Source: Thermodesulfovibrionales bacterium
Lineage (GTDB): Bacteria > Nitrospirota > Thermodesulfovibrionia > Thermodesulfovibrionales > SM23-35
Direction: 5' to 3'
DNA length: 49,365 bases
Assembly (NCBI GenBank): GCA_031082155.1
Contig: JAVHLL010000021.1
Location: forward strand, 1-49,365
The number at the start of each line of letters is the position of its first letter. Position 1 is the first letter of the stretch. Of this stretch, positions 5,868 through 24,463 are shown one piece after another. The translations under genes and the position numbers were made by a program. The notes beneath the pieces are model-generated. The model made no database searches. It had not been told where the DNA came from and was given only the letters and a program-made list of their open reading frames with translations.

Positions 5868-5896
5868 TTGACACAAGGAAAAATCCCCATTACAAT
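5868..5896 (+). promoter_or_regulatory. consensus sigma70 promoter producing a leaderless transcript
   Basis: Perfect TTGACA (5868-5873), 17-nt spacer, TACAAT (5891-5896). The predicted +1 (about 5903) is one base before the ATG at 5904, leaving no room for a ribosome-binding site. Confidence 0.8.
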
Positions 5897-5903
5897 TTAG
5901 CAA

Positions 5904-6479
5904 ATGAGAAATACAATTCTGTTGGTCGAAGATTCAAAGGTTGTGCAGCAGATGTACCGGAGCAAGCTGACAATCGAACAGTTTACAGTTTTGACCGCCG
6001 ATAACGGGGTGGAAGCTATCAAGATCCTCTCCACGGAAATCCCGGATATCATCCTCCTTGACCTCATGATGCCGGTGATGGACGGGTATAAAGTCCTCCA
6101 GGTTATCAAAACCGATCCCCGTCTTACGGATATTCCCGTCATCGTATTCTCTGCGAAGGGGCAGCCGGAAGAGGTTGAACGTTCCATGAATCTCGGGGCC
6201 GCGGGATATATTATCAAGGCAACAACAAAACCGAATGAGGTTGTGGAACAGATACGCAAGATCCTCAGCCAGAAGCCAAAAGCAAAAGCCGTCACTTTTT
6301 ACCGGGTAAAAATCGATGAGCACGCTTATGACGCGGCAAAACTTGCTGCCGACTTTTCCCTGCAGGATTTTAGTTGCCCGGTATGCAAGACGCCGATGCT
6401 CCTCGAATTGATCCCTGATTTTTCTCACGAAACACCCTGGTTTTCCGGAACGTTCTTCTGCCCGAAGTGTAAAGGCTGA
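5904..6479 (+). CDS. receiver-domain protein with C-terminal zinc ribbon
   Basis: This 191-aa protein has a CheY-like receiver at residues 3-120: acidic pair E9-D10, phospho-acceptor Asp53 in LLDLMMPVMD, conserved S/T and Lys in VFSAKG and IIKATTKP. A linker of about 30 residues follows, then a compact C4 zinc ribbon (CPVC at about 154-157, CPKC at the extreme end) separated by roughly 30 residues. There is no DNA-binding or enzymatic output domain, so the ribbon is probably a protein- or nucleic-acid-contact module (inference). The start is fixed by the receiver's first strand; no Shine-Dalgarno exists and the promoter predicts a leaderless mRNA. The stop codon (6477-6479) directly abuts the stop of cheY on the other strand, with no terminator between. 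Confidence 0.88.
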   Translation: MRNTILLVEDSKVVQQMYRSKLTIEQFTVLTADNGVEAIKILSTEIPDIILLDLMMPVMDGYKVLQVIKTDPRLTDIPVIVFSAKGQPEEVERSMNLGAAGYIIKATTKPNEVVEQIRKILSQKPKAKAVTFYRVKIDEHAYDAAKLAADFSLQDFSCPVCKTPMLLELIPDFSHETPWFSGTFFCPKCKG

Positions 6480-19872: not shown

Positions 19873-20640
19873 TTAATAGGTGATACGTTCGAGAAAAAGA
19901 CCATTTCCTGGAGCGGTGGGACCGGCGCATTTCCTGTCGCACGAGAGAAGAATTTCTTTCATGCGATCGGCTGAAATCTTTCCTCTTCCGACTTCTGCAA
20001 GCGTGCCGACGATATTCCTTACCATGTGGCGTAAAAAACCGTTTGCCTCAACGGTTATTTTGATAAAATTCCCTTTCACTCCTCCCGTCATAAAACTGAT
20101 TTTTTTCATACTTCTGATTTCCAGGGAAAGGAGTTCACGCACAGGATTTTTTATGCCGCTCCCTGTCCCCATGAACGAGGAGAAATCATGAAGACCGGGG
20201 AGAACAGCCCCCGCAGTCCGCATTGATTTCAGATCAAGCGGCTGCCTGATCAGCCAGGCATAGCGGAAGAGGAATCCAGAAGAACTGTTCTGGTTGGCGA
20301 TGATATAGAAATATCTCTTCCTAAGCGCATCATCCCTCGGCTGGAAGGTATTGTTCACAATCGATGCATCAAGAATTCTGATATCAGATGGGAGCAGGGC
20401 ATTCAGCGCCTGTTGTATTCTTTCAGGACCAAGGTCCGATGAGGTGCTGAATGCAGCAACCTGACCAAGGGCATGCACTCCTGCGTCAGTTCTGCTTGCC
20501 CCCATGACCCTGGAAAGTTCGCCGGTGATGTTTCTGATCCTGTCTTCAAGGATACCCTGAATAGTTACCTCGTTCCGCTGGAGTTGCCAGCCATGGTATC
20601 CGGTACCGTCATATTCGATGATGAGTCTGATTTTCTGCAT
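19873..20640 (-). CDS. truA: tRNA pseudouridine(38-40) synthase
   Basis: This 255-aa enzyme isomerises U38-U40 in the anticodon arm. The catalytic Asp52 sits in the signature GASRTDAGVHALGQV. The N-terminal motif EYDGTGYHGWQLQ and the C-terminal FLRHMVRNIVGTL motif are intact. Length is typical. No Shine-Dalgarno is seen. A weak -35/-10 pair (TTGCGG 20674-20669, N17, TATGCT 20651-20646) ends 5 nt before the ATG, so a leaderless transcript is possible. The gene diverges from the unknown gene at 20732. Confidence 0.96.
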   Translation of the reverse strand: MQKIRLIIEYDGTGYHGWQLQRNEVTIQGILEDRIRNITGELSRVMGASRTDAGVHALGQVAAFSTSSDLGPERIQQALNALLPSDIRILDASIVNNTFQPRDDALRKRYFYIIANQNSSSGFLFRYAWLIRQPLDLKSMRTAGAVLPGLHDFSSFMGTGSGIKNPVRELLSLEIRSMKKISFMTGGVKGNFIKITVEANGFLRHMVRNIVGTLAEVGRGKISADRMKEILLSCDRKCAGPTAPGNGLFLERITY

Positions 20641-20731
20641 GGTTTAGCATATCACCCGCTCAAGATTCCCGCAATGCCGCTCCGCCATAAGATTCTGTGC
20701 GTGTATCTGATACAATAAATCAGTAGGCGCT

Positions 20732-21802
20732 ATGGTTGATATCGAATCGCTGGCCCGACAGGTCAAGAAGAACTGCAATATCTCTGATGCCCGTTACTGG
20801 GGAAACTATTCCCTCTGCGGCCTTCTCCTCAGATTGAGAGACCTCTATCGTTCCGAAAGTCAGGTGAACCCGTGGGAGAGGATTTCTCACCGCGATGTCG
20901 GCGAATGGATCTCGGCGAGGGAAGCCCTATGGGGAGAACTCAAAGACAGCGAGTTCGGGGATATTCCACTGAACGGTAATGTATATGATGCGTTTGAAGT
21001 TGAACGCATCAATGCGGCGCTGACAAAGGAAGGCCTGGTCTACGGCGCCGGGCTTGGGCTTTACGGGAAACCATCATTTTTCCTCGCCGACCTTGTGTCG
21101 AAAGAACAGAAGAATGGCTGTGCGGTTTTTACCGCCGCGGGTGAATATGCCCGTGATCTTGCGGACTATCCTGCGATGGTACAGGAGAAGACGATATTTA
21201 TGCGCACCGATATGGTAAAACAACTCCTCTGGGGACGGTTCGAGGAGGTACGCTCCAACTGCGTCAAATCTGCCCTCACCTATGCTTTTTCGTATTACGG
21301 GATCAGTGCCGGTGAAGAACCTTCTGAGAATCTCTATGCAAGAATATCACAGGTTGCGCTCTGCGAAGCAGAGACGTACCTCTATCATGAATTGGGAGAA
21401 GTCTTTGAGGGAGAACGGACAGGGGGGGAATGGAAGGCATTGCTCGCGTCCCTGCCGCATGGCCGTGCTGAAGTGTTCGTACGCTCTGTCAAGGATATCC
21501 TCTCCGATACCTCTGAGAATGGCATGCTCATGTACATCATACAGAACCGGAAAGCCGGGTCTCTCGGTTTTTATCTTGTCTTCCTCACCGGGTTCAGGAA
21601 GATCATTTTCCCCGAAATATCCGAAGCGTTTCAGGTATTTCAGGAGACAGGAAACTGGGGAAGGATTGATGAGGCAAGAAAAGCAGGATACAAAAACGCC
21701 GCAGGCTACCTCGAAAAGATTCTTTTCCTCCATAAAAGAGGTGTCATCAACAGCACACTCTCTGAACGGATTGAGCAGGAAATCCTGAGCGGGTTGCTAT
21801 AA
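20732..21802 (+). CDS. conserved-looking protein of unknown function (356 aa)
   Basis: This 356-aa soluble protein has no signal peptide, membrane helix or catalytic motif I can name. The N-terminus (ISDARYWGNYSLCGLLLRLRDLYR, in part) and a Trp/Glu-rich stretch (WISAREALWGEL) look like family signatures. The whole reads as an alpha-helical protein with good codon usage. I recall similar proteins being annotated as the Sfum_1244 family, but this is memory, not a search. An extended -10 (TGATACAAT, 20708-20716) lies upstream, predicting a leader of about 9 nt and little room for a Shine-Dalgarno. Its stop overlaps the stop of the convergent HD-GYP gene by 6 nt. Confidence 0.75.
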   Translation: MVDIESLARQVKKNCNISDARYWGNYSLCGLLLRLRDLYRSESQVNPWERISHRDVGEWISAREALWGELKDSEFGDIPLNGNVYDAFEVERINAALTKEGLVYGAGLGLYGKPSFFLADLVSKEQKNGCAVFTAAGEYARDLADYPAMVQEKTIFMRTDMVKQLLWGRFEEVRSNCVKSALTYAFSYYGISAGEEPSENLYARISQVALCEAETYLYHELGEVFEGERTGGEWKALLASLPHGRAEVFVRSVKDILSDTSENGMLMYIIQNRKAGSLGFYLVFLTGFRKIIFPEISEAFQVFQETGNWGRIDEARKAGYKNAAGYLEKILFLHKRGVINSTLSERIEQEILSGLL

Positions 21803-23101
21803 CAGTTCGGGACCGACGTTCTGGGCGAATACCTCGACAAGCCAGAAATCAAACTGGGTGCCGGCATTCCGTTGTAATTCTTCTATCGCAGAGGCAAAGC
21901 TTATCGGCACCTTATATGACGTCTCGCTCACCATAACATCAAAGGCATCAGCTATTGCGATAATCCTTGACTCAAGGGGTATTTCTTCCCCAGCCAGGTT
22001 CATGGGGTATCCGGTGCCATCGTATCGTTCGTGGTGATGGAGGATAAATGGCGCGATCCCTGCATAGAAGTTTATCGGTCTGATCATTTCATATCCGATA
22101 ACAGGATGTTTCACATAGTATTCCCTCCTGAAATTATCTTCGTTCCTGATTTTCAGGAAACCCACATCATGAAGGAGGCAGGCAAAATACAGCTTCCTCT
22201 GCTCTTCTTCAGACATGTTGATTGCCTTTGCAATGAGAGTACTGTATTTCGCAACCCGCCTGGAATGCCCTGTCTTTTCCATGATCTGGGAGTCCAGCGT
22301 TTCCAGAAGGATATCAGTGAGATGAATCTCGTAGTTTTTTTGGTCTTCAATGAATTTTGCCCGTGCGAGTGAAATTGCCGCTTGATCAGAAAGATACACT
22401 ATGAGTTCTTCATCTTTCTCTGTGTAATACCCGTTCTTTTTGTTCAGCAGTTCTATTACCCCGATCACTCCGGTTTTCATGATCAGGGGGACGCAGAGCA
22501 TGGATTTTGTCTCATAGCCGGTTCTCGTATCAACTTCCGGGTCAAACCGGGCATCACCCTGGATATCTCCTGTACGGAGAGGCCTGCCGCTTTTCGCTAC
22601 CCAGCCGGCTATCCCCTTGCCAGCCGGTATCTTTGTTCCGGTAAGAATCTCCGCCTTCGCGCCTTTTGCTATCTTGAAGACCAGGTCGCCGTTTTCTACT
22701 AGCAGTATCGAACCGGTATCTGACTGAGTGAGTGCAAGCGAGGAGTCGATTATCTTCTCAAGGAGAATGTCTCCGTAAATTTCATCACGAACGTCCCGTG
22801 TGACGGTAAGGATCTGGTCGAGTCTGTTTTTATAGCTCTCAATACTCTGGATGATCCTCCGGGAAACGACTGCCCACATATAGAAACCGAGAATGGCGAG
22901 AAAGACCACGATCCCGATGATCAGGGTTATCGAGATATCGGGAAGGAAATCAAAGACGTCACTGAGAGGTTTGAAGAGATACCTGAATATTACTGCGAGG
23001 AGAGTAATAACGACAAAGGCTGCGATAATATTCAGGAGACGGATTTTCTGTTTTATTTCCGCGATCAGAGAATGTTTGTCTTCCCGGTGTTCTCTTTCCA
23101 T
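21797..23101 (-). CDS. membrane-anchored GAF / HD-GYP phosphodiesterase-like protein
   Basis: This 434-aa protein has two N-terminal membrane helices (about 23-43 and 55-79) joined by a short loop. A GAF domain (about 105-245) includes GKGIAGWVAKSGRPLRTGDI and MCVPLIMKTGVIGVIEL. An HD-GYP-type domain (about 265-430) includes HSRRVAKYSTLIA, LLHDVGFL and HHHERYDGTGYP. The HD and the HHERxDGxGYP signature suggest cyclic-di-GMP hydrolysis. The input is presumably a cytosolic ligand of the GAF domain or a membrane signal. A consensus promoter 6 nt before the ATG and the absence of a Shine-Dalgarno predict a leaderless mRNA. Confidence 0.9.
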   Translation of the reverse strand: MEREHREDKHSLIAEIKQKIRLLNIIAAFVVITLLAVIFRYLFKPLSDVFDFLPDISITLIIGIVVFLAILGFYMWAVVSRRIIQSIESYKNRLDQILTVTRDVRDEIYGDILLEKIIDSSLALTQSDTGSILLVENGDLVFKIAKGAKAEILTGTKIPAGKGIAGWVAKSGRPLRTGDIQGDARFDPEVDTRTGYETKSMLCVPLIMKTGVIGVIELLNKKNGYYTEKDEELIVYLSDQAAISLARAKFIEDQKNYEIHLTDILLETLDSQIMEKTGHSRRVAKYSTLIAKAINMSEEEQRKLYFACLLHDVGFLKIRNEDNFRREYYVKHPVIGYEMIRPINFYAGIAPFILHHHERYDGTGYPMNLAGEEIPLESRIIAIADAFDVMVSETSYKVPISFASAIEELQRNAGTQFDFWLVEVFAQNVGPELL

Positions 23102-23107
23102 AGCTTC

Positions 23108-23136
23108 AATGTAATAAATACGCGCCGGAATGTCAA
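23108..23136 (-). promoter_or_regulatory. consensus sigma70 promoter of the HD-GYP gene (leaderless)
   Basis: Minus strand: TTGACA (23136-23131), 17-nt spacer, TACATT (23113-23108), then 6 nt to the ATG at 23101. The predicted +1 coincides with the A of the start codon. Confidence 0.82.
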
Positions 23137-23151
23137 CCGAGGAGGATGAGG

Positions 23152-23180
23152 TTGATAAATCGCATATGAAAAGGTAGAAT
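23152..23180 (+). promoter_or_regulatory. sigma70 promoter of hisD (leaderless)
   Basis: TTGATA (23152-23157), 17-nt spacer, TAGAAT (23175-23180), 8 nt to ATG 23189. The predicted +1 near 23187 leaves a 2-nt leader. Its -35 is 15 bp from the -35 of the divergent HD-GYP promoter. Confidence 0.78.
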
Positions 23181-23188
23181 TATTTTCG

Positions 23189-24463
23189 ATGAAGAGAATA
23201 CAAACCCGCAAAGAGCGAAGCGCTTTTTTCAGCATCCTTCAGACGCGCGCATCAGGGATGAACAGGACAATCGAAGAGAAAGTCAGGACAATCCTGGATG
23301 ACGTACGAAGACATGGCGACAAAGCTCTTTATGCCTATACAGAACAGTTCGACTCACTGAAGACAAATTGCCTGAGACTTTCTTCTCAGGAGATTTCACA
23401 CGCTGCTGCAAAAGCAGAGAAAAATATCGTGAAAGCCCTCAGTCTTTCCGCCCGGAGGATCAGGGTATTCCATAAACAGCAGCGTGAAAAGTCATGGTCA
23501 TTCAGCAGAAACGGGATTGAACTCGGACAGATCATCAGGCCGATTGAACGGGCGGGCATATATGTACCCGGAGGAAAAGCTGCATATCCTTCTACAGTTC
23601 TCATGAATGTAATCCCTGCGCAGGTTGCAGGGGTCGGTGAGATCGCAGTGTGTGTTCCGGCTCCGAAAGGTAAACTAAACCCCGCTGTTATGGCAGTACT
23701 GCAGTTGCTCGGTATTCAGGAAGTTTACAGGATAGGGGGAGCACAGGCAATCGCCGCTATGGCATATGGAACGAAAACGGTCAGAAAAGTTGATAAAATA
23801 ACTGGTCCGGGCAATATCTATGTGGCAACGGCAAAAAGAATGGTATATGGCGAAGTGGATATCGATATGATCGCCGGCCCCAGTGAAGTGCTCATTATCG
23901 CGGATGAGACAGCAAACCCCGCGTTCATTGCCGCAGATATACTCAGCCAGGCCGAACATGATGAACATGCGTCATCGGTCCTTGTCACTCCTTCCGGAAA
24001 ACTGGCGGACTCAGTGCGAAAAGAGGTGCAAAAACAGCTGATTACCCTGCGGAGGAGAGATATTGCGCAGAAATCTCTGGAAAGCTTTGGGGCAATAATG
24101 CTCACAAGAGATATGCAGGATGCGGCAGAAATCGCAAACCGGATCGCCCCCGAGCATCTGGAGATCATGACTGCCCGGCCAAAGGATATCCTGCCACTCA
24201 TAAAACATGCCGGCGCGATATTCCTTGGAGAATGGACGCCGGAAGCGCTTGGTGATTATTCCGCAGGTCCCAACCACACCCTTCCCACAGGAGGAACCGC
24301 ACGGTTTTCTTCTCCTTTGGGAGTATATGATTTCATGAAACGGTCGAGTCTTCTCTGCTTTACAAGGCAAGGTTTCAATAAACTGGCCGAGACAGTGAAG
24401 ACAATCGCAGATGCAGAAGGACTTGAGGCGCATGGCAATTCGATCAGGGTGAGGCAGAAATAA
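23189..24463 (+). CDS. hisD: histidinol dehydrogenase
   Basis: This 424-aa enzyme catalyses the last two steps of histidine synthesis (histidinol to histidine, NAD+). Motifs present: ERAGIYVPGGKAAYPSTVLMN, the signature stretch KITGPGNIYVATAKR, IDMIAGPSEVLI, ILSQAEHD (metal/catalytic region) and SAGPNHTLPTGGTARF with the catalytic His (all quoted in part). Length is normal. It is a lone his gene here: no other his gene is adjacent, and hisH lies 24 kb away. No usable Shine-Dalgarno once the promoter is considered; predicted leaderless. Confidence 0.97.
   Translation: MKRIQTRKERSAFFSILQTRASGMNRTIEEKVRTILDDVRRHGDKALYAYTEQFDSLKTNCLRLSSQEISHAAAKAEKNIVKALSLSARRIRVFHKQQREKSWSFSRNGIELGQIIRPIERAGIYVPGGKAAYPSTVLMNVIPAQVAGVGEIAVCVPAPKGKLNPAVMAVLQLLGIQEVYRIGGAQAIAAMAYGTKTVRKVDKITGPGNIYVATAKRMVYGEVDIDMIAGPSEVLIIADETANPAFIAADILSQAEHDEHASSVLVTPSGKLADSVRKEVQKQLITLRRRDIAQKSLESFGAIMLTRDMQDAAEIANRIAPEHLEIMTARPKDILPLIKHAGAIFLGEWTPEALGDYSAGPNHTLPTGGTARFSSPLGVYDFMKRSSLLCFTRQGFNKLAETVKTIADAEGLEAHGNSIRVRQK

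Follow-up and report, generated by a model that had tools for sequence, protein, structure and literature searches.

The 87 bp that separate the gene of an HD-GYP domain protein (positions 21797–23101, minus strand) from hisD (23189–24463, plus strand) very probably hold two independent leaderless promoters, and the Nitrospirota order from which this DNA comes would, on the same comparative evidence, use leaderless mRNA for a minority of its genes. Throughout, "the window" means the whole stretch of DNA that was analysed, 49,365 nucleotides in length.

Both genes were identified from their open reading frames (ORFs) and from Pfam, and for hisD also from alignment of the N-terminus in relatives. 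The hisD product, histidinol dehydrogenase, has 424 aa and matches Histidinol_dh (PF00815) over its full length (E 2.9e-176, profile positions 3–410 of 411); a downstream start at Met 24 was rejected, since most alignments to relatives start somewhere in residues 1–13. The neighbouring protein has 434 aa, with an N-terminal membrane segment, a GAF domain, and an HD-GYP domain (Pfam matches to GAF and HD_5; PF13487, E 3.6e-30). The membrane segment was read by eye in the translation, as were the letters HDVG and DGTGYP, which we take to be the HD and GYP motifs. For both genes, no in-frame ATG, GTG, or TTG is found 5' of the start before a stop is reached.

A consensus scan places the two promoters as follows. 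On the minus strand, the HD-GYP promoter consists of TTGACA (23136–23131), a 17-nt spacer, and TACATT (23113–23108), after which come GAAGCT and the ATG at 23101; 6 nt thus separate the -10 box from the start codon, and counting seven nucleotides past the box would put +1 on the A of the ATG. On the plus strand, the hisD promoter consists of TTGATA (23152–23157), again a 17-nt spacer, and TAGAAT (23175–23180), followed by TATTTTCG and the ATG at 23189. Here the -10 box lies 8 nt before the ATG, and the predicted +1 is 23187, 2 nt 5' of the start codon, which we record as the range 23187–23189. Each promoter has 10 of the 12 consensus bases, and the coordinates agree with an earlier note on this DNA that had described two near-consensus promoters inside 87 bp with their -35 boxes 15 bp apart.

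One should be careful not to read too much into such a scan. Ten promoter-like sites were found over 7 kb, where shuffled sequence leads one to expect 7.9 (sd 2.9), and at this near-chance density the consensus scan alone gives the pair no significance. What is significant is the position of the boxes relative to the two start codons, and it is the comparison with relatives that decides. No Shine–Dalgarno (SD) 4-mer was flagged at -16 to -5 before either gene of the window; hisD does have AAGG at -18, which is too far for the usual SD interaction, yet not impossible.

Our explanation is that the region comprises two housekeeping (sigma70/SigA-type) core promoters that face away from each other and work independently. 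The housekeeping holoenzyme, presumably with this sigma factor, would bind each of them, and RNA polymerase would start on the A of the start codon or 1–2 nt 5' of it; because of this start position, the hisD and HD-GYP mRNAs would be leaderless, with ribosomes taking the 5'-terminal AUG rather than an SD sequence. The window's pair would be one example of a mode used by a minority of the genes that lead transcription units in this order. The observations at hand are the positions of the boxes, their conservation, the absence of an SD sequence at its usual place, and the failure to see a conserved site in the DNA that separates the two -35 boxes.

For hisD, the comparison covers 61 genomes (the window's own, one congener, and others of the family and order), 60 of which have the gene; all 60 upstream regions, from 43 genera, were read. 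A promoter that matches the consensus at 8 or more of 12 bases and ends 5–9 nt before the start is present at 40 of these loci and in 32 of the genera, whereas 200 dinucleotide shuffles of the 60 upstream regions gave a mean of 2.75 and a maximum of 9. At 9 of 12 the count is 35 loci in 29 genera, against a mean of 0.74 and a maximum of 4 in the same number of shuffles. Six more loci have TATAAT at 5–9 nt without a recognised -35 box, four of them in the form TGnTATAAT, which brings the total to 46/60 loci and 34/43 genera. Among these 46 leaderless-like loci, 45 lack an SD 4-mer at -16 to -5, whereas 10 of the 14 that do not fit possess one; before hisD, the -10 box and the SD sequence are thus nearly mutually exclusive. 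Four further members of the order (L296–L299) were also inspected, and the -10 box was found in two, an SD sequence in one, and neither in one.

The HD-GYP gene was followed in the best 30 loci out of matches in the 61 genomes, 29 of them with a usable start (L219, with no readable start, was dropped from the count). A 9/12 promoter ending 5–9 nt before the start occurs in 19 of the 29, against a mean of 0.33 and a maximum of 2 in shuffles. Two more loci, L194 and L199, fit as well if the next in-frame GTG, and not an earlier one, is the start. Even when these are added, eight of the 29 (L206, L208, L209, L211, L212, L214, L215, and L218) do not fit, having a longer distance, an SD sequence, or no clear promoter; in L214, for instance, the gap is 10 and an SD 4-mer is present. 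In the 21 fitting relatives TTGAC is invariant in the -35 box; among relatives in general, the -10 box at a gap of 5–9 is often TAAAGT or TAAATT. With both genes so far above their shuffles, the earlier placement of each +1 at or within 2 nt of its ATG gains support from the relatives.

It could still be that these promoters are real but that the main transcripts start elsewhere, with a promoter inside the neighbouring gene adding a leader and the start-proximal -10 box being secondary. The near-chance density of promoter-like sites over 7 kb leaves room for unseen start sites of other types, and in a minority of the HD-GYP relatives at least 10 nt separate the nearest good promoter from the start. 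However, between 22,700 and 23,600 the scan lists these two promoters only, identity among relatives drops to 25–27% upstream of the -35 box, neither gene has an SD 4-mer at the usual place, and no Rfam match was found at E up to 1 within 22,900–23,500. We regard a distal main start as very improbable. The same lack of an Rfam match, together with the lack of room between the predicted +1 and the ATG, led us to reject a structured leader, a his attenuator, or a riboswitch before hisD, and a leader RNA is accordingly among the disfavoured explanations.

Leaderless starts on both sides leave the question of whether the two promoters belong together. In 13 of the genomes read, the HD-GYP gene lies next to hisD and points away from it; in one of them, G016, the HD-GYP gene is only partial. 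In the window, 15 bp lie between the -35 boxes (23137–23151, no strand). This gap measures 15, 18, 21, 22, 23, 23, and 25 bp in seven genomes and ranges from 38 to about 140 bp in the other six; for L007 the figure is a slight underestimate, an earlier TTGA having been taken as the box. Its spacing is thus not fixed in these 13 genomes, and no site conserved across genera was seen in it by eye. A shared operator between the -35 boxes was therefore ruled out, given the variable length and the absence of any sequence seen to be common to genera, and a gap operator is disfavoured along with the leader RNA. The earlier note's opinion that there is little room for operators outside this gap stands.

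Alternatively, the short gap might tie the pair into a single divergent regulatory unit, through competition between the polymerases or through co-regulation. A pair of polymerases, each with its alpha C-terminal domains, would probably clash on -35 boxes as closely spaced as those of the window, and the gap is no longer than 25 bp in 7 of the 13 genomes. Against this, it reaches about 140 bp in others, and the start-proximal geometry is kept in G005, G010, and G017, where hisD and the HD-GYP gene are apart. We consider a divergent unit unlikely. Because the gap varies so widely, with no sequence seen to be common to genera, the pair is not a fixed unit, and because both genes keep their geometry when apart, the two promoters do not form a unit, which refines the earlier description of them.

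Other divergent genes were considered in a sample of the window's genome amounting to 568,935 bp, in which starts were taken as the longest-ORF starts, some of them surely wrong. The sample holds 54 divergent pairs, and the 30 with less than 200 bp between them were inspected. Three of these have a -10-like box 4–10 nt from both starts and are 85, 86, and 87 bp apart; two wider pairs (316 and 356 bp) were flagged on both sides too, and six pairs under 50 bp resemble spurious ORFs by eye. A penicillin-binding protein (PBP) gene with transglycosylase and transpeptidase domains stands back to back with dnaE in 9 of the best 30 dnaE loci. Three of the nine were left out, the PBP match not beginning at residue 1, and in all six intergenic regions read a -10 box lies near both starts, at 6–7 nt on the dnaE side and 6–10 nt on the PBP side. 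A fixed spacing of 85–87 bp as a feature in its own right was ruled out, since the dnaE/PBP regions measure 85–125 bp and other genomes have a larger gap at hisD; 85 bp is taken as the least room needed, not as a rule.

Three individual regions may be mentioned here. In L165 (3209–3296) the PBP and dnaE genes diverge 86 bp apart, with a -10 box six nucleotides before both starts, and in L166 (10297–10383) 85 bp separate a DUF948 gene from the divergent ribD, the starts being preceded at 6 and 8 nt by -10-like boxes. In the window itself (20640–20732), a truA-like gene (minus strand) and a DUF6866 gene (plus strand) are divergent with 91 bp between them; TATGCT stands 5 nt before the ATG on the truA side, and the DUF6866 side has no -10-like box that close.

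How far the mode extends was assessed in the same genome sample. With the 9/12 rule and a distance of 5–9 nt, 13 of 118 divergent genes qualify (the window's two included) against a background of 1.3, as do 8 of 147 far-spaced genes (background 1.6), none of 27 at intermediate spacing, and none of 164 operon-internal genes. The excess is smaller at 8/12, with 16/118 divergent (background 4.2), 16/147 far-spaced (5.8), 3/27 intermediate (0.7), and 2/164 operon-internal genes (2.9). SD 4-mers precede 26–43% of the sampled genes, depending on class, so both modes coexist in this genome. Two further genes, dnaE and tpiA, were picked as candidates since they looked leaderless in the window's genome. 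The start-anchored geometry is present in all 28 usable loci of the best 30 for dnaE (matches in 61 genomes; two loci were dropped for lack of a usable start or for a short upstream region), and in 23 of the best 30 for tpiA (matches in 58 genomes). As single instances, tpiA of L032 (7686–7730) has TTGACA-17-TAAAGT, 6 nt before its ATG, and a response-regulator-like gene of the window, itself a leaderless candidate, has TTGACA-17-TACAAT (5868–5904; 11/12) 7 nt before the ATG at 5904.

Outside the order, which is probably Thermodesulfovibrionales (placed by NCBI in class Thermodesulfovibrionia), the picture changes. Among 77 usable loci of 80 kept that are named as hisD, nearly all from other groups, TANNNT stands 5–9 nt before the start in two and an SD 4-mer is present in 62. 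Both TANNNT-bearing loci are labelled Nitrospirae: L051, 66% identical to the window's hisD, possibly belongs to the window's order, and L109, 47% identical, has TAGAAT-like DNA close before its ATG. Judging from L109, leaderless-like hisD may occur outside the window's order too. In other families of the same class or phylum (16 loci, of which L293, with a TTG start only, was left unscored), none of the 15 readable hisD loci has a -10 box at 5–9 nt, and 14 of the 15 have an SD 4-mer before at least one candidate start.

Since a promoter of this kind is fixed to a start codon, individual promoters can be traced across genera. Conservation was measured with one locus per genus, using every locus that passed the rule of 8/12 at 5–9 nt. 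The -35 block, the -10 block, and the 40 nt upstream are, respectively, 55%, 60%, and 26% identical for hisD (32 genera); for dnaE (23 genera) the block values are 67% and 71% with 27% upstream, for tpiA (19 genera) 62% and 65% with 27%, and for HD-GYP (16 genera) 60% and 54% with 25%. The identity of the blocks is partly forced by the selection rule, and it is therefore the bases outside the hexamers that matter. Over the seven bases after the -35 box, identity within a gene, with that to the other genes in brackets, is 42% for hisD (25–31%), 51% for dnaE (25–36%), 38% for HD-GYP (25–27%), and 37% for tpiA (25–36%). Over eight bases around the -10 box the corresponding values are 55% for dnaE (26–40%), 52% for tpiA (24–27%), 40% for hisD (24–40%), and 35% for HD-GYP (27–33%). 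Not every flank stands out: the tpiA bases after the -35 box match one another (37%) no better than they match dnaE (36%), and the hisD bases around the -10 box equal their match to dnaE (both 40%). In one flank or more, each gene nevertheless shows a degree of extra conservation peculiar to it, most clearly dnaE. The upstream DNA is random (25–27% identity), whereas the boxes, together with some of the bases beside them, are kept gene by gene.

The bases kept beyond consensus raise another possibility at hisD. The commonest -35 sequence in relatives is TTGAATAATC (TTGAAT then AATC), of which the window's TTGATAAATC is a variant, and the block TTGAATAATC...TTAGAATTATC might mainly be the site of a regulator, made of two direct half-sites GAATwATC 23 nt apart, that overlaps the promoter by chance. 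The two half-sites do resemble each other by eye, and the positions that follow the -35 hexamer are conserved beyond promoter consensus, with A 78%, A 75%, T 69%, and C 56% across the 32 genera, in line with the raised identity of these seven bases in hisD relative to other genes. However, dnaE has similar extra conservation at bases of its own, and six hisD loci have TATAAT only, as noted above. The exact block, TTGAATAATN13-15TARAATTA, occurs at one site in each of 19 of the 61 genomes, always directly before hisD, and its reversed control has no sites in the 61 genomes; a regulon sharing the block was ruled out under that exact pattern, which misses the variant in the window's genome and its congener and so leaves these two out of the test. 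We judge it quite unlikely that the block is mainly a regulator's site, although one overlapping the promoter is possible, given the kept AATC after the -35 box. A coding or short-peptide explanation of the block is also disfavoured, and was ruled out, as the block contains stops and does not keep one frame with respect to hisD from family to family.

Two independent core promoters, the reading that we prefer, would fit with what is described for other bacteria, in which leaderless genes are already established (PMC3160421, PMC12340547); the case presented here would add a Nitrospirota order. The papers considered here treat leaderless transcription chiefly in archaea, Actinobacteria, and Deinococcus-Thermus. 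TA-led genes are described by Zheng et al. (2011, PMC3160421) as genes whose SD sequence is replaced by a Pribnow-like TA signal right before the start codon, with TAtaaT being the form in medium-GC genomes; the section of that paper on groups with leaderless genes does not name the Nitrospirae. Our genes are similar in having a -10-like signal before the start codon and no SD sequence, but they also have -35 boxes and are traced gene by gene across genera, back-to-back pairs included. In Deinococcus-Thermus the TANNNT that adjoins the start codon is the promoter -10 box, just as the -10 box adjoins the start codon here, and an added -35 box raises expression; approximately one third of the genes of D. 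radiodurans belong to this type, compared with about 7% of unit-leading genes here by the stringent score with background subtracted (PMC12340547). In Corynebacterium glutamicum several his transcripts (e.g., hisEG and hisHA) start at the start codon, while the hisD leader measures 93 or 196 nt and includes an SD sequence (PMC3896937); in our case it is hisD that would be the leaderless one. The portion of PMC10783764 that bears on Nitrospirota names its classes for anti-SD type only. In the open-licence PubMed Central literature, judged by title and abstract, we found no report of leaderless genes in Nitrospirae/Nitrospirota, Leptospirillum, or Thermodesulfovibrio.

The broader proposal is that a whole Nitrospirota order keeps start-anchored leaderless promoters for core genes (at least hisD, dnaE, tpiA, and HD-GYP), with some non-consensus bases that are specific to each gene and kept across genera while the upstream DNA is random, and to this we would give roughly even chances. 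If it is true, the basal promoter of each gene would itself be under long-term purifying selection, and the coinciding starts of transcription and translation would make promoters alignable and readable directly in the genomes of uncultured organisms. A set of promoters fixed to start codons would make long-term selection on single core promoters measurable by alignment. Gene-by-gene retention of leaderless promoters in this order would extend the range in which they are known and assist the choice of start codons during annotation, and the window's pair illustrates that the control region of two divergent genes can be as short as approximately 85–90 bp.
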